A stretch of 64,000 bases of DNA from Alphaproteobacteria bacterium (GTDB taxonomy: Bacteria > Pseudomonadota > Alphaproteobacteria > ATCC43930 > CGMCC-115725): contig JASHOB010000257.1 of the NCBI GenBank assembly GCA_030041335.1, forward strand, positions 1-64,000. Direction: 5' to 3'. How positions within the stretch are numbered: the stretch's first letter is position 1; the number at the start of each line of letters is the position of its first letter. The position numbers and the translations under genes were made by a program. Of this stretch, positions 5,070 through 12,367 are shown one piece after another. The notes under the pieces were generated by a model. The model saw nothing but the letters and a program-made list of their open reading frames with translations, searched no databases and was not told the DNA's origin.

Positions 5070-5765
5070 CTAGGTAACGGGACGTTGCAACCGATAGCCA
5101 ATGCCCGGTTCGGTGATGATGTAAGCTGGACGAAGCGGATCCGGTTCGATTCGGCGCCGGAGCTTCGCGATCGCAACCCTGAGATACTGGGTACGATGTT
5201 GCCGTGACGCGCCCCAGACCCTTCGGACAATCTCCCTGTGTGTCAGCGTTCTTCCCCGCGCTTCCGCGAGGAGCCGCAAGACTTCAAATGTCTTGGCGGA
5301 TAAGTGTATGTCGCGACCGCCGAAACTGACGCGGCGATGCAGAAGATCGACGTTGAGGTCGCCGATCAAAAATTGCGCAGGTTTGCCGCGTTCTCTCGCT
5401 CTGCGGCGCAGCACATTTTCTACCCGAGCGACGGTTTCTCGAACATTGAATGGCATCCGGATGAAGTCGTCGGCACCTCCGGTGAGCGCCTCGATCACGG
5501 TGTCCTCGTCGTCACGGTTTGACAGCGCAATGATTGGAATCGGCGATCCATCACGCACGATCCTGACGCCTGCGATACCCTGACTCTCGGCCGAATCGAT
5601 TCCCAAGATCACAAGATCGAGATTGTGCTCGGTTGCCTTGTGCAAGGCGCCGCGGCTGGCCGGTGCTTCATCGACACGATAGCCGGCCTCGGTCAGTGTG
5701 CGGCGCAACAACGTTCGGACCGCGTGATCGCCATCGATAACAAGAACACGTGGGCTTCGCATCAT
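5070..5765 (-). CDS. kdpE: KdpE-like OmpR-family regulator with degenerate receiver
   Basis: The protein has 231 residues. Residues 1-120 form a receiver-like domain and residues ~130-231 an OmpR-type winged helix. The C-terminus (TQYLRVAIAKLRR, then TEPGIGYRLQ) closely resembles KdpE. The receiver has lost its chemistry. The phospho-acceptor Asp is Gly55 in DLVILGIDS, the second residue of the acidic pair is Gly12 (VIDGD), and the conserved Lys before Pro-Phe is Met104 (IRMPF). It should therefore bind DNA without aspartyl phosphorylation. The gene is the last of the kdp operon, 78 bases after kdpC, and no kdpD lies between them as it normally would. Inference: a constitutive or protein-controlled regulator of kdp. 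Confidence 0.85.
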   Translation of the reverse strand: MMRSPRVLVIDGDHAVRTLLRRTLTEAGYRVDEAPASRGALHKATEHNLDLVILGIDSAESQGIAGVRIVRDGSPIPIIALSNRDDEDTVIEALTGGADDFIRMPFNVRETVARVENVLRRRARERGKPAQFLIGDLNVDLLHRRVSFGGRDIHLSAKTFEVLRLLAEARGRTLTHREIVRRVWGASRQHRTQYLRVAIAKLRRRIEPDPLRPAYIITEPGIGYRLQRPVT

Positions 5766-5843: not shown

Positions 5844-6857
5844 TCAGGTCGGCGAGCCGTACCGATTGCGCAGCTCGAGATTAAGCTGCAACACATTGAC
5901 AATCGGCTCGCCGAACAGACCTCCACCCGGGCTGAAGGCATCGGACTGGATCATCGCTTCGATCTCTTGTCTGACCTTTTCGGGATTCCGCTTCAAGTCT
6001 TGCGCCCACTTGCCCGCTACGCGATCGAGCTGGAACTCCGCGTTCTCGACCGTGATATGGGGGTCAAGACCGGAGCCCGAGGTCGTCACCATATCGCCGG
6101 GCACGTCGTTCAACGCGACGCTCGGGTGGTCCTGACGCCACATATCAAAGAAGATCGACTGGATGTCGGAGCCAGTCTTCACTGGGGCTATTTCCGTGAC
6201 GTCCTTGCCCGCTTTGTCCTTATGCGTAACGGGTCCGGGGAACGTACCCGGATGGTCTTTTGAATAGTGCTCGAAGAACACCACGGCGAGATCACTGGCG
6301 GCCGGCTTCGGCGTCGCGGGATTGTCCTTCACGAACTGCGCGACGATGTCCGGATGCGCTTTCGACCATGCATCTACATAGACTCCATGCGTCGCGTCGG
6401 CGGTCACCCAACCCTGCGCCAGCGAATTATGCGCATCCGCCCATTGGGCAACGATACCTGGCTTACCGCCGAATTTGTCGGCCTGAAACCAGGCCTCGAC
6501 GTCAGGCGCGACCGGCTTACTCTTATTCGGGCCCGCGGCGTAGGTGGCAATCGGTCCGATCGCCCGCGCCACGCGATCGCGCAGAGCGTAGTTCGAAACC
6601 GCCAACGCCGACGAGCTCGAAGCAGTGCCATCGTAGGACGCGGCAGATGGGCGCGGCTGGAAATATTCGTCCTTGGTAAAGGGCTGTGCAACCAGCAGTG
6701 AACCAACGGGCTTGCCGTCAGGACCATTGACGATGCTGCCGTTGGCTTGGAAAGGCCAAAGGGTTTGGCCGATGACCCACAGGACCCCGGGATAGATTCC
6801 GCAAACCAGGATCACGGCAAAGAGCAACAGCCACAGGCTTTTAGCAACGGAGCGCAT
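5844..6857 (-). CDS. kdpC: Potassium-transporting ATPase KdpC with large internal insertion
   Basis: KdpC is the single-span subunit that stabilises the KdpFABC high-affinity K+ pump. Residues 1-100 match ordinary KdpC: a membrane helix at about 8-30, WPFQANGS, the YFQPRPSA stretch and LAVSNYALRDRVA. Residues ~252-337 match its C-terminus (SGSGLDPHIT, GEPIVNVLQLNLEL). Between them lie about 145 extra residues, making 337 against the usual ~190. The insert is hydrophilic and holds degenerate repeats with an aromatic residue shortly before His-Pro (AWSKAHPD, HYSKDHPG, MWRQDHPS). It would sit outside the membrane, on the periplasmic side. The gene follows kdpB by 23 bases. Confidence 0.93.
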   Translation of the reverse strand: MRSVAKSLWLLLFAVILVCGIYPGVLWVIGQTLWPFQANGSIVNGPDGKPVGSLLVAQPFTKDEYFQPRPSAASYDGTASSSSALAVSNYALRDRVARAIGPIATYAAGPNKSKPVAPDVEAWFQADKFGGKPGIVAQWADAHNSLAQGWVTADATHGVYVDAWSKAHPDIVAQFVKDNPATPKPAASDLAVVFFEHYSKDHPGTFPGPVTHKDKAGKDVTEIAPVKTGSDIQSIFFDMWRQDHPSVALNDVPGDMVTTSGSGLDPHITVENAEFQLDRVAGKWAQDLKRNPEKVRQEIEAMIQSDAFSPGGGLFGEPIVNVLQLNLELRNRYGSPT

Positions 6858-6880: not shown

Positions 6881-9007
6881 TCAGGCCACCAAATGCAGCG
6901 TCACCATGATCATGTCGATCAGCTTGATGCCGACAAAGGGGACGATCACACCGCCGAGCCCCCACACGAGCAGGTTTCGGCGTAGTAGCGCATCGGCGCC
7001 CATGGGCCGATAACGAACGCCCTTTAGGGCGACCGGAATGAGCAGCGGAATGATGATCGCGTTGAAGATCACCGCCGACAGAATGGCGGAGGTCGGCGAA
7101 TGCAGATGCATGACATCGATCGCCTTGAGCCACGGCAGGGTTCCGGCGAACAACGCTGGGATTATGGCGAAATATTTCGCTACGTCGTTGGCGATGGAGA
7201 ACGTCGTCAAGGCCCCGCGTGTCATCAGCAATTCCTTGCCGATCGCCACCACTTCGATGAGCTTAGTCGGATCGCTGTCGAGATCGACCATGTTACCGGC
7301 TTCCTTGGCCGCCTGCGTTCCGGCGTTCATCGCCAGTCCGACATCGGCCTGAGCTAAGGCCGGCGCATCGTTCGTGCCGTCGCCCATCATCGCCACCAGC
7401 TTGCCGTCGGTCTGCTCTTGGCGCAGAAACGCCAATTTCGCCTCGGGGGTAGCTTCGGGCAGGAAATCGTCGACTCCGGCGCGCCTGGCGATGGTCGCCG
7501 CGGTGAGACGGTTGTCCCCGGTGATCATCACCGTGCGCAGGCCCATCCGGCGCATTTGCGCAATTCGTGTTTCGATGTTGGGCTTCAGCGTGTCTTTGAG
7601 GACCACGACGCCCAATGCGCGGGTCCCATCGGCGACGACAAGCGGGGTGGCACCTTCCGCCGCCGCCTTCGCGATCAGATTATCGACATCCGTCGGCGTT
7701 GGTGTTCCCAGGGCATGCAAGTAGGCAGCGACCGCATCCGGCGCACCTTTCCGAATTCGCCGCCCGTCAGCAAAATCGATGCCGCTCATTCGTGTCTGCG
7801 CCGAGAATTCGATGAATTTTGCGTGCTCCGGCGCCGTCTTCACCGCGTCCGGAACCCCAGAACGCAGAGCGATGGCGACGATGCTTTGCCCTTCGGGCGT
7901 TCGATCCGCCACCGACGCCAGCGCCGCCGCCGTCATCAAGTCGCGCACATGGACGCCCTGAAGCGGCAGGAATTCGGACGCCAGACGCGCGCCTAGCGTT
8001 ATCGTTCCCGTCTTGTCGAGTAGCACCGTATCGACGTCGCCGGCGGTTTCGACCGCCTGACCGCTTTTGGCGATGATGTTCGCCCGAAGCGCCCGATCCA
8101 TGCCGGCGATGCCAATTGCAGCGAGCAAAGCCCCGATCGTTGTCGGGATAAGGCAGACCAAGAGAGCGACCAGCGTCGGCACGTCAGTGCCGAGGCTCGT
8201 CAGCGGCGCGCTCAAACCGAGATAGGACGTCATGTACTGCTCGGCGTTGAACGCCATCGGCCAGAGCGGGATGACGACAATGAGGAAAATGAGGCTGAAC
8301 GCCGTAAGCACCAGGGTCAGAGCGATCTCGTTCGGTGTCCTTTGCCGCACTGCGCCTTCGACCAGAGCGATCATGCGATCCAGGAACGACTCGCCATAGC
8401 CGGCTACGACGCGGATGACGATTTGGTCCGACATCACCATTGTGCCGCCGGTCACGCCGGATCGGTCGCCACCCGCTTCGCGGATGACCGGTGCGGACTC
8501 GCCCGTTATCGCCGACTCGTCGACCGAGGCGACGCCGTCAATCACTTCGCCGTCACCGGGAATGACCTCTCCCGCGGCAACCACCACCCGATCGCCGGGT
8601 CTGAGTTGGACCGAGCTGACTTCCTCTTTCGTGCCGTCGGCGCGCAAGCGGCAGGCCGGGGTCGAAACCCGGGTACGGCGCAGGAACGCCGCTTGCGCGC
8701 GGCCGCGCTCCTCCGCAAATGCGGTCGCGAAATTCGCAAACAGCACGGTGAGCCACAGCCAGACATCGAGCGCGACGAAATAGCCCAGAGAAAATGACGC
8801 ACCGGCACCGCCCAAGGCGGCGCGGACGATAAAGGCGAGCGTCAGGACGGCGCCTACTTCGACCACGAACATCACCGGGTTCTGCCACTGAATGTCGGGC
8901 CGCAGCATCACGAACGACTGCTTCAACGATCCCAATGCCAAGCTCGTGCTGAACAGCTGGTGCGTTTTTGCAACATTGGTGCGAAGCGGGAGCTCGACGG
9001 CGGTCAT
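6881..9007 (-). CDS. kdpB: Potassium-transporting ATPase KdpB, catalytic P-type subunit
   Basis: KdpB hydrolyses ATP to drive K+ uptake through KdpA. The protein has 708 residues, slightly longer than the usual ~680-700. Diagnostic motifs are all present: the actuator TGES loop ([12 protein letters not shown]), the phosphorylation site LLDKTGTIT, the hinge motif [18 protein letters not shown], and the membrane segment with [18 protein letters not shown] typical of KdpB. The start at 9007 has GGAG about 8 bases upstream, lying just outside the group II intron remnant. Translation can therefore initiate independently of kdpA. In most bacteria kdpA and kdpB are nearly adjacent, whereas here 812 bases separate them. 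Confidence 0.97.
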
Positions 9008-9020
9008 GGCATGGCTCCAA

Positions 9021-9795
9021 GTGTGCCGGTCAAAACCGGCAAGGTGTTGTGAATGAAAGAGTCACACGGTGAAGGACTAGCGACCCACGCCGGCTCCGAG
9101 TCATGCGCAACCGGCCGCGAGGACGGCGCCGAAGCGTTGACAGGGGTACGTGCGGGCCGGGTATTGAGCCCCGAAAGTAGATCACTCCGGAACGCCGACG
9201 CAGTGAAGGGACGCGGAAGGCGAAACTGGCATCGTCGGTATCGCGAGACGCTGCTGGGCTCGGCGCTGTCAGAGACCCGGAGCACGTACCGAAACACCAT
9301 GTTCGCGAACCGGCAAATCCTGTGGCTGCCCACGGCGCATGGCGCCATGGGCCGCGTCGGGACGTCCAAGGACGCAGGCCGACGCTGAACGACCACAGGA
9401 AGTCGGACAGGCCAGAAGTACCGGGGAAGTCTCCGAACAACGCCGAGCTCCGACGACGCATGCGCGATCCCATTCCAGAGCAGGGCCGACGGTTGCACTT
9501 GGTCGTGGGTGGGCACATCCGATATTACGGTGTGCCCACGAACAGCCCCGCGCAGTTTCGGTTCCAGGTCGGCCATCTCTGGCATCGCGGCTGGTCGCGC
9601 CGCAGCCAGAATGGCCGGGCCCTGCGAGACCGGATGCAACGGCTCATCGACCGGTGGCTGCCTCCCGCACGCGTCTGTCATCCCTACCCGCTGCGCCGTC
9701 TTGGCGTAATCACCTGAGGCAGGAGCCGCATGCCGGAAAGCCGCTCGTCCGGATCTGTGCAGGGGGCTATGCGCAATCATGGTTCCTAGTGCGAC
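9021..9795 (+). mobile_element. Truncated group II intron (maturase remnant) between kdpA and kdpB
   Basis: The element reads on the plus strand, opposite to kdp. It begins GTGTG at 9021, matching the GUGYG 5' end of group II introns. It continues with the 5' conserved stretch that can be read as GEGLATHAGSESC and GAEALTGVRAGRVLS (9068-9170), typical of the leader before bacterial intron ORFs. It then jumps directly to the C-terminal end of an intron-encoded maturase (9430-9717: HIRYYGVP, WHRGWSRRSQ, RWLPPARVCHPYPLRRLGV). The reverse-transcriptase domains are deleted, so the element is about 0.8 kb instead of about 2 kb or more. A domain V follows. The 3' end is approximate. Because it is antisense to the operon it cannot splice from kdp mRNA. 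Confidence 0.85.
9723..9757 (+). ncRNA. Group II intron domain V
   Basis: The segment begins GAGCCG, has a GGAAAG cap region and returns through CGTCCGGATC. This gives the short bulged hairpin with a GAAA-type tetraloop that defines catalytic domain V. It lies six bases after the maturase stop codon, the normal spacing. A possible domain VI hairpin follows at about 9759-9788. Confidence 0.75.
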
Positions 9796-9819
9796 TGAAT
9801 TTTCCTGGCCGGTGGGTGG

Positions 9820-11646
9820 TTAGCCGCCGAACGGAATCGGTCCGAGATGTTCGGCCAACGGCCCCAGCGCGGCGACCGGCAAGAACAACAGCGCGCCGAT
9901 GATCACGATCGTACCCAGCAACAAGAAACCGAACGTTGCCGTGTCGTCGCGCATGGTTCCCAGCGATACCGGCGCCATCTTCTTGCGGCCGAGATAGAAC
10001 GCCATCGCGATCGGGGCGATGATCGGCAGATAGCGCGAGAACAGCATCACCAGGCCGGTGCCGATATCCAACGGCACCGCTTCCGGCGACGGGCTCGGGT
10101 TGTTGTTAAAGCCATAGGTGACGCCCAGTCCGTCGAAGGCGGAACCGTTATTCGCGGATGCCGACGAATACTGGTAGACGATTTGCGAAAATCCGTGGGC
10201 TCCGGGATTGCTTTCGGCCTTGACGCCCCAATCGGTAGCGGCATAAAGCCCCGCCGGCCCGAGGATCATGATCGGGTGGACCAGGAGCGCGATCATCGCA
10301 AGTTTCATCTCGCGCGCACCGACCTTGCGACCAAGATATTCCGGGCTGCGGCCGACCATCTGGCCGGCCAGAAACACGCCGACGATCAGGAATAGCAGCA
10401 GATTGATCATGCCGACGCCCTTGCCGCCGAACACACAGTTCAACCACATGCCTATGAACGGCGAGATGCTTGCAATGGGATTGAGACTGTCGTGCTCGGC
10501 ATTGACCGCACCGCACGTGACGTCGGTTGTAATGGCGGCGAAGACGGCACCGGCGGAGGTGCCGAAACGTAGCTCTTTTCCTTCAAGATTGCCCAAATGC
10601 TGGTCGACGGGGAGGCTGCCAACGGCCGGGACGGCGATGGCGTGCTTGCCGCCCGGACTTGAAGCGTCTCCTATCTGATAATCGCGTGCCTGTGCGGTGC
10701 CGGTGAAGGCGGGATTCGGACTTAGCGTGTCCCAATAGACCGCCCAGGCGATCAGTCCGACCATCATCGTGAGCATGACCGTATAGATCACCACCGAGTG
10801 ACGAACTCGCTGCAGCATTCGCCCATACATCAGAACCAGCGTGAACGGAAAGATCATCATCGCAAACGTGGTGACGAAGTTCGACACCGCCGTTGGATTT
10901 TCGAGCGGATGGGCGGAGTTCATGCCGTAGAAACCGCCGCCGTTGGTCCCGAGCATCTTGATCGGGATCACCGCGGCGACCGGACCGACGATGATGTTTT
11001 GCGGCTTCGCTTGACCGTGATCGTCGGTGCCCATCGAGCCGGGCTCCAGCGTGGTCACCGTCTGTTGGGTGTCGTACGTCATCGGCATGCCTTCATGCAT
11101 GAAGATGACGCCGATGATCAGGGCCGCGGGAAGATAGATGTAGACGGCGACCCGCCACATATCGACGAAGTAGTTGCCGATAAGGCGCTCACCGCGGAAC
11201 AGCCGGATGATTGCGGTCAGTGCACAAAAGCCGACCGACGCCGACAGGAACATGTTCGGCAAGATGAAGAATATCTGGCTGAAATTAGAGAGGTGCTGAT
11301 CGCCTGAATAATGTTGCAGGTTGGTATTCGTCATAAACGAAATGACGGTATTGAAGATCGTCGATGGCGCCAGAATGCCGCGACCGAGTGGGTTGAGCGG
11401 TGCAATCGGCTGCAGGCACAGTACGATAAAGCCGAAGATAAACAGCATCGCGTTGAAGATCAGAAGGGAAACAGTATACTGCTTCCAATCTTGTGGGCCG
11501 CTATCGAGGCGCCTTTCAAACCAACGCAGGAAGCCGGGGACCTTGAGGCTTCCCTCCATCACAATTGCAAAATACCGGCTCAGCGGGATCGACAAAAGAA
11601 TCGTCACCACCAGCAACAGAATTGGCAGCGTCCACATGATTTTCAC
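9820..11646 (-). CDS. kdpA: Potassium-transporting ATPase KdpA, channel-like subunit
   Basis: KdpA is the ion-conducting subunit of KdpFABC, related to the SKT/Trk/Ktr/HKT channel-like superfamily. The protein has 608 residues with about ten membrane spans. Filter-associated stretches are visible (TNTNLQHYSGDQHLS near residue 115; MLGTNGGGFYGMNSAHPLEN near residue 235), close to the textbook KdpA sequences. It starts MKIMWTLPILLLV and lies 42 bases after kdpF. Residue ~350 carries a stretch similar to that seen in other long KdpA proteins (FGTSAGAVFAAITTDVTCG). The stop codon lies about 25 bases beyond the end of the antisense intron remnant. Confidence 0.97.
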   Translation of the reverse strand: MKIMWTLPILLLVVTILLSIPLSRYFAIVMEGSLKVPGFLRWFERRLDSGPQDWKQYTVSLLIFNAMLFIFGFIVLCLQPIAPLNPLGRGILAPSTIFNTVISFMTNTNLQHYSGDQHLSNFSQIFFILPNMFLSASVGFCALTAIIRLFRGERLIGNYFVDMWRVAVYIYLPAALIIGVIFMHEGMPMTYDTQQTVTTLEPGSMGTDDHGQAKPQNIIVGPVAAVIPIKMLGTNGGGFYGMNSAHPLENPTAVSNFVTTFAMMIFPFTLVLMYGRMLQRVRHSVVIYTVMLTMMVGLIAWAVYWDTLSPNPAFTGTAQARDYQIGDASSPGGKHAIAVPAVGSLPVDQHLGNLEGKELRFGTSAGAVFAAITTDVTCGAVNAEHDSLNPIASISPFIGMWLNCVFGGKGVGMINLLLFLIVGVFLAGQMVGRSPEYLGRKVGAREMKLAMIALLVHPIMILGPAGLYAATDWGVKAESNPGAHGFSQIVYQYSSASANNGSAFDGLGVTYGFNNNPSPSPEAVPLDIGTGLVMLFSRYLPIIAPIAMAFYLGRKKMAPVSLGTMRDDTATFGFLLLGTIVIIGALLFLPVAALGPLAEHLGPIPFGG

Positions 11647-11688: not shown

Positions 11689-11769
11689 TCAGAACCATTC
11701 CGGTCTGACGAGAGCAACTCCCAGGTAAACGAACAGCAACCCAGCAATAGCGGCGGTTATGTAAATCAT
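11689..11769 (-). CDS. kdpF: KdpF, small stabilising subunit of the K+ pump
   Basis: A 26-residue single-span peptide reads MIYITAAIAGLLFVYLGVAL and then VRPEWF. The closing motif, ending Arg-Pro-Glu-Trp/Lys-Phe, is characteristic of KdpF, which binds and stabilises the KdpABC complex in the membrane. It lies immediately before kdpA, its expected place. It is too short for most automated gene calls. Confidence 0.93.
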   Translation of the reverse strand: MIYITAAIAGLLFVYLGVALVRPEWF

Positions 11770-11779
11770 GTCTGTCCCC

Positions 11780-11875
11780 TCAGATTCGCGCGCAGCCTTC
11801 CGCGAAAGCGAGACAAAGCGCCATGCTGACCAGACCAAGCAGAAACGTTGCCGGCAACCAGATCGAAAGATCCAT
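11780..11875 (-). CDS. 31-residue membrane peptide at the head of the kdp operon
   Basis: The frame encodes MDLSIWLPATFLLGLVSMAL followed by CLAFAEGCARI. It has one hydrophobic span (about residues 5-24) and a short tail with two more cysteines or charged positions. A ribosome binding site (AGGAG) lies about 7 bases before the ATG, and only 10 bases separate its stop from the kdpF start. From memory, short peptides of similar sequence precede kdpF in other rhizobia. It may be an additional small subunit or a leader peptide. Confidence 0.75.
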   Translation of the reverse strand: MDLSIWLPATFLLGLVSMALCLAFAEGCARI

Positions 11876-12367
11876 TGCGACCACTCCTTGGCGTTTCGGC
11901 ATTTCTCACTGAAAAATGCGAATAGGGGTTAAACGTAGGTTGGCGCCTTATAAAAAATCCATGCGATTTCGGCCGCATTCTTGTTAGGAAAAACGGATGA
12001 CTTCATAAGAATCTGATGCTGATAAATCGTGCCGTTCATAAAAAAAGGATAAAGGAAATCGCCAGTGCGACACGCTCGAAACGGCGGCGGTAATACCCGC
12101 TTTATAAGAAGCGCTCTGTTTCCCCATCGAAATTTTATGCGCCGCAACTCTATCTCTTCCGCCATCAGAAACGAGTTGTCGGTGCACCATGTTATTTTAC
12201 CAACGAGATAAGTTCGCGGCGCCCGCGGTCCGGCGCCTTGTCGCAAATCCTTCATGCGGACCGGACTTAGCCAATCGATCGCCCGTCATCGGTCGCCAGC
12301 GTCTCGGCCGCCTAACGACGATCACCTTCGCCGGCGAGCCAACGGCGAATCGCTGGGGTGCCGCGCT
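11876..12367. other. Upstream region of the kdp operon
   Basis: This divergent intergenic region separates the kdp operon from the small plus-strand genes. It should contain the kdp promoter and any KdpE site. Positions 11990-12060 are more A/T-rich than the surroundings. I could not pick out a confident -35/-10 pair or operator by eye. A 108-codon minus-strand frame lies here, but it has no domain character. Confidence 0.4.

Follow-up and report, generated by a model that had tools for sequence, protein, structure and literature searches.

How does a response regulator work once the residue that should carry its phosphate has gone? The question is raised by kdpE', a gene (5070..5765, minus strand) in a 64,000-nucleotide stretch of alphaproteobacterial DNA, hereafter the window. 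An initial annotation, made from the sequence alone, described a KdpE-like regulator in which all receiver phosphorylation residues are replaced and which has no KdpD, and proposed that kinase and target had been lost together, leaving a rewired, perhaps constitutive, regulator. About 4-6% of receivers are pseudo-receivers, and how the bacterial ones are switched on and off is an open question (PMC12632262).

A second kdp operon and its regulator

The gene comes last in a leftward operon with the order two small peptides-kdpA-kdpB-kdpC-kdpE', all on the minus strand. The operon starts with a small membrane peptide of 31 aa (11780..11875) and a KdpF-like peptide of 26 aa (11689..11769), a layout that recalls the region upstream of canonical kdpA, since canonical operons also have a second small ORF ahead of kdpF. 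These are followed by kdpA (9820..11646, 608 aa), kdpB (6881..9007, 708 aa, TIGR01497 above cut-off) and a long form of kdpC (5844..6857, 337 aa), from which kdpE' is separated by 78 nt. The canonical operon of the same genome encodes a KdpC of 201 aa. Long KdpC has an insert of more than 100 aa in the middle of the protein and is rare in our class and phylum samples. An 810-bp insertion (9010-9819) separates kdpA and kdpB in the window; it contains the 3' part of a group II intron (9058-9278, plus strand, antisense to the operon), and no intact reverse transcriptase was seen in it. A 360-bp stretch of this insertion has an 86% copy on contig C85 beside another regulator (L012), and the two related operons described below are free of the insertion.

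The product of kdpE', 231 aa long, was assigned from its ORF, Pfam domains, alignment and tree. Response_reg and Trans_reg_C both score over the Pfam cut-off. In fact, the receiver (residues 5-122, 5400..5753) reaches 65.3 bits against PF00072 (cut-off 30.2), and is thus recognised by Pfam despite the missing acceptor Asp; a winged-helix DNA-binding domain follows (residues 131-231, 5073..5375). The best family and structure match is KdpE of the KdpDE system (E. coli 4KNY, NCBIfam PRK10529). The protein falls below the NCBIfam KdpE cut-off, and so does the genome's canonical KdpE. In the tree, kdpE' joins the regulator of a congeneric genome (G002; support 99), then that of a more distant relative (G008; support 99), and the three are nested in KdpE of the same bacterial family and class. 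In all three genomes the gene lies directly 3' of kdpC. By domains and tree position, then, kdpE' is a genuine KdpE-lineage regulator of the OmpR type, and its place directly downstream of kdpC is that of a kdpE, as first annotated.

No kdpD lies between kdpC and kdpE', and a profile search of the window found none. The rest of the genome tells another story, and here the initial annotation went too far: the search across 5.17 Mb returned one match to the KdpD family, a full-length protein of 909 aa on contig C176, which excludes a loss of kdpD from the genome. This contig carries a complete canonical kdpFABCDE, in the order kdpABC-kdpD-kdpE and with an ordinary KdpE. The only kdpD of the genome thus adjoins its own kdpE, and kdpE' has no cognate kinase gene beside it. 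Nor did we find a short, non-kinase KdpD in the genome, in which the N-terminal KdpD domain was matched only once. KdpA was matched three times, on C176, on C60 and in the window. The C60 copy is a lone intact kdpA (L014 9097-10803), with no kdpB, kdpC or kdpD recognised within 16 kb around it; a G008 gene 76% identical to it sits right beside the long-KdpC operon of that genome. From its gene content, the locus in the window is a divergent kdp operon, the second of this genome. In S. aureus, SCCmec II likewise adds a spare kdp operon to that of the core (PMC4686210), but that spare has its own kdpD, whereas the window operon has none.

A receiver that cannot be phosphorylated at the usual site

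We aligned the receiver with E. coli KdpE (a reference sequence identical to PDB 6lgq) and with the genome's canonical KdpE. At the five catalytic positions kdpE' has Asp11, Gly12, Gly55, Ser82 and Met104; three of the usual residues are lost, with Gly12, Gly55 and Met104 standing for Asp, Asp and Lys. The alignment has no gaps around the active site and places Gly55 (codon 5601..5603) at E. coli Asp52, Ser82 at Ser79 and Met104 at Lys101. kdpE' therefore departs at these three residues from the set found in phosphorylatable KdpE receivers (DD, D, T/S, K). The acceptor Asp is present in 77 of the 81 homologues aligned, and the Lys in 76. An alignment with an Asp at the acceptor position of kdpE' is excluded: Asp57 is no displaced acceptor, as the G008 homologue has both Asp55 and Asp57 (LDID against LGID in kdpE'). 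Sequencing or assembly error, or chance, is excluded as well, because the congener also has Gly55 and Met104. As aligned, phosphorylation of kdpE' at the usual Asp is impossible. Only the word "all" in the initial description was too strong, since Asp11, Ser82 and the aromatic Phe101 are retained.

Ser82 and Phe101 are the switch pair of the receiver. In CheY, Phe at the K+2 position biases the protein to its inactive state (PMC12632262); this residue is still Phe in kdpE', so constitutive activity is not assured. Gly occupies the acceptor position in 11% of aspartate-less receivers, and no receiver with this Gly had a solved structure as of 2015 (PMC4395418). Like ChxR, HP1043, CosR and RitR (PMC4395418, PMC12632262, PMC3960148), kdpE' is an orphan that has lost the acceptor Asp and kept the receiver fold and, largely, the dimer face; unlike them, it comes from the KdpE lineage, lies within a kdp operon and has Gly as acceptor and Met for Lys. 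By these features it adds a member to the known class of pseudo-receivers, at an unusual, kdp-linked position. We also came across OmpR-type proteins from Chloroflexi (L051, L052 and L053) whose receivers are strongly degenerate and lack the acceptor Asp; we dropped them as parallel kdp-linked cases, kdpA, B, C or D being unmatched in the flanking sequence retrieved.

Constraint, fold and dimer face

Is kdpE' simply a decaying relic, an orphan regulator whose constraint fades in a spare operon? It does change faster than its neighbours (67% identity between window and congener, compared with 89% for KdpC and 98.6% over part of KdpB), what is left of a group II intron separates the window's kdpA from its kdpB, and a Caballeronia plasmid has a broken relative of the operon. 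But the reading frame is intact in two species. Between them, dN/dS is 0.18 for the receiver (bootstrap 95% 0.07-0.32), 0.14 for the DNA-binding domain (0.06-0.28) and 0.06 for KdpC, ratios that are rough because dS exceeds 1, and the differences concentrate at third codon positions in both domains of kdpE'. With 0.32 as the upper bound for the receiver, and with KdpB and KdpC strongly constrained, decay appears improbable to us: as read from these substitutions, the receiver is under purifying selection.

An AlphaFold2 model of kdpE' (mean pLDDT 88) keeps the (beta-alpha)5 topology of a receiver intact; its domain placement is unsure (pTM 0.56, large whole-chain rmsd against DNA-bound KdpE). 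The best structure matches of the model are KdpE 4kfc and 4kny, the latter being also the best sequence match. The entry 4kfc is a Glu216Ala KdpE titled hyperactive mutant; the G008 homologue with the intact site (L092 3606-4280) has Val at E. coli Glu216.

Set against the interface residues listed for KdpE in PMC4773095, the equivalents retained in kdpE' include Asp97-Arg111, Asp96-Arg118, Glu107, Ile88, Leu91 and Ala110. Altered in this lineage are Val114 and the Asp92-Arg113 pair, which has become Thr (window) or Ala (congener), and Glu. Thus, residue by residue, most of the alpha4-beta5-alpha5 dimer face is retained, and it is compatible with a kdpE' homodimer and, as we infer, suits pairing with canonical KdpE less well.

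DNA recognition and the kdpA promoter

In E. coli, KdpE requires Arg193, Arg200 and Thr215 and has the site TTTATA-N5-TTTACA (PMC3264566). All three contact residues are found in kdpE', as Arg196, Arg203 and Thr218, and its recognition helix is 73% identical to that of the genome's canonical KdpE. The view that the DNA-binding half is intact and KdpE-like is thus borne out. Boxes resembling CTTTATG-N4-CTTTATA stand at several canonical kdp promoters of this bacterial family, and the window kdpA promoter has a candidate KdpE-type box of its own, CTTTATCCTTTTTTTATG (TTTAT-N6-TTTAT; 12037..12054, minus strand), found by pattern and matrix search. The pattern CTTTATNNNNNYTTTAYR has exactly two matches in the 5.17 Mb, one upstream of the canonical and one upstream of the window kdp operon (its reversed control matched once in the genome). 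With the window site left out of its training set, a matrix scored the window box at 19.0, above all background positions tested, the best of which reached 14.6. Like E. coli KdpE, then, kdpE' is linked to kdpABC, has the same DNA-contact residues and goes with a candidate operator of TTTA-type half-sites 11 bp apart; unlike it, kdpE' lacks a phosphorylatable acceptor, an adjoining kdpD and the Asp92-Arg113 pair.

The shared box suggests that the window promoter remains responsive to the intact KdpDE system. The same box, together with the likeness of the two recognition helices, would also suit a competitor, that is, a kdpE' that sits on KdpE boxes but fails to activate, or pairs with KdpE in inactive heterodimers, and thereby damps or insulates kdp expression through negative feedback. 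In fact, the DNA-binding domain of E. coli KdpE alone binds and cannot activate transcription (PMC3264566). Against this, the change of Asp92-Arg113 to Thr or Ala and Glu should disfavour heterodimers with canonical KdpE, and the homodimer residues are mostly retained, so that we hold this competition to be a possible but rather unlikely role.

The full KdpE box is absent at the long-KdpC operons of the congener and of G008, and KdpDE control of this operon may therefore not be conserved. What the window and congener kdpA promoters have in common, and they alone, is another motif, CGCATGGATTTTTTAT in the window (11950..11965, minus strand), which may be an operator or terminator-like. Its form CGCATRGRWTTTYTAT has one exact copy in the window promoter and two in that of the congener, spaced 33 bp apart, with no further exact copies among the fetched loci. 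Could kdpE' be autonomous, with a ligand, ion or partner gating its remodelled pocket and with an operator of its own, perhaps this CGCAT..TTTYTAT motif, independent of KdpDE? The distribution of the motif, the missing full boxes in the congener and the retained switch residues Ser82 and Phe101 point that way. Yet the motif was derived from these very sites, with a shuffle p of only about 0.01, its window copy overlaps a terminator-like hairpin, one-mismatch matches elsewhere reveal no clear common target, and no ligand is evident; autonomy is accordingly doubtful in our eyes.

The order of loss

The long-KdpC operon is found in three of 39 family genomes (the window's own, the congener and G008), and wider sampling of the class (385 genomes) and of the phylum (398 genomes) showed it in the window's own genome alone. 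Broken remnants of a long-type kdpB-kdpC pair lie on a Caballeronia megaplasmid (L114 8275-9876). The congener's regulator is 67% identical to kdpE' and has Asp11, His12, Gly55, Ser82 and Met104. That of G008, at 51% identity, has canonical residues at all phosphorylation positions, in an operon of the same type as the window's and likewise without an adjoining kdpD. Upstream of kdpA of that operon lies a pair of divergent KdpE and KdpD-like kinase genes (L092 9953-12258), in which the kinase matched KdpD residues 382-905 only, the N-terminal KdpD domain being unrecognised.

The proposed joint loss of kinase and target is not supported, given the kdpFABCDE that the genome retains and the relative that lacks an adjoining kdpD with its site intact. 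Because of this relative the loss reads as stepwise: probably, as the simplest order, the kinase linkage was lost first and the phosphorylation site later, along the lineage leading to the genus of the window, an order for which G008, the one intact outgroup, is the sole basis.

A phosphate-free KdpE within a switchable operon?

With the acceptor gone, the DNA-binding half intact and the protein retained by selection, phosphorylation-independent action is the natural reading. Going by sequence, kdpE' is probably a DNA-binding protein that is armed at all times and works through its amount, not through phosphorylation. Rewiring to a constitutive regulator is nevertheless probably too simple a description, as the shared box suggests control by KdpDE. 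We thus envision kdpE' as a pseudo-receiver paralogue of KdpE that needs no phosphate to act and exerts feedback on a kdp operon still open to being turned on by canonical KdpDE, a reading to which we give a probability of about 0.5. Low K+ would activate canonical KdpD and KdpE from C176; phosphorylated KdpE would bind the box upstream of the window kdpA and drive transcription of kdpABC together with kdpE'; kdpE' would then dimerise, bind KdpE-type sites without phosphate and feed back on the operon with a strength set by its amount. The feedback could have either sign, and we favour a positive one, which would sustain expression.

A parallel exists in CmrRST of Clostridioides difficile, a two-component system proposed to act via the level of an active pseudo-receiver (PMC12632262). 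There the pseudo-receiver regulator CmrT is proposed to be under level control by an ordinary two-component system, as we propose for kdpE', but the gene for CmrT lies with those of its kinase and regulator, whereas for kdpE' the intact pair lies at another locus. Much more speculative, and one to which we give very little credence, is the idea that the remodelled pocket (Asp11, Gly12, Gly55, Ser82, Met104) directly senses a cytoplasmic ion or nucleotide, making kdpE' a one-component K+ regulator derived from a two-component ancestor. Were this true, the intact relatives would represent the surviving ancestral state.

In the open-access literature, the scope of our survey, we found no paper on a KdpE pseudo-receiver, and within that literature a kdp-linked pseudo-receiver seems to be undescribed. 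These genomes offer a natural series within a single pathway that is well understood, from a canonical KdpE with its kinase, through the G008 protein, a KdpE that has no linked kinase and keeps its site, to two species in which the site is gone. Because the operator, the structure and the signal of KdpE are known, the effect of losing phosphorylation would be directly testable here.
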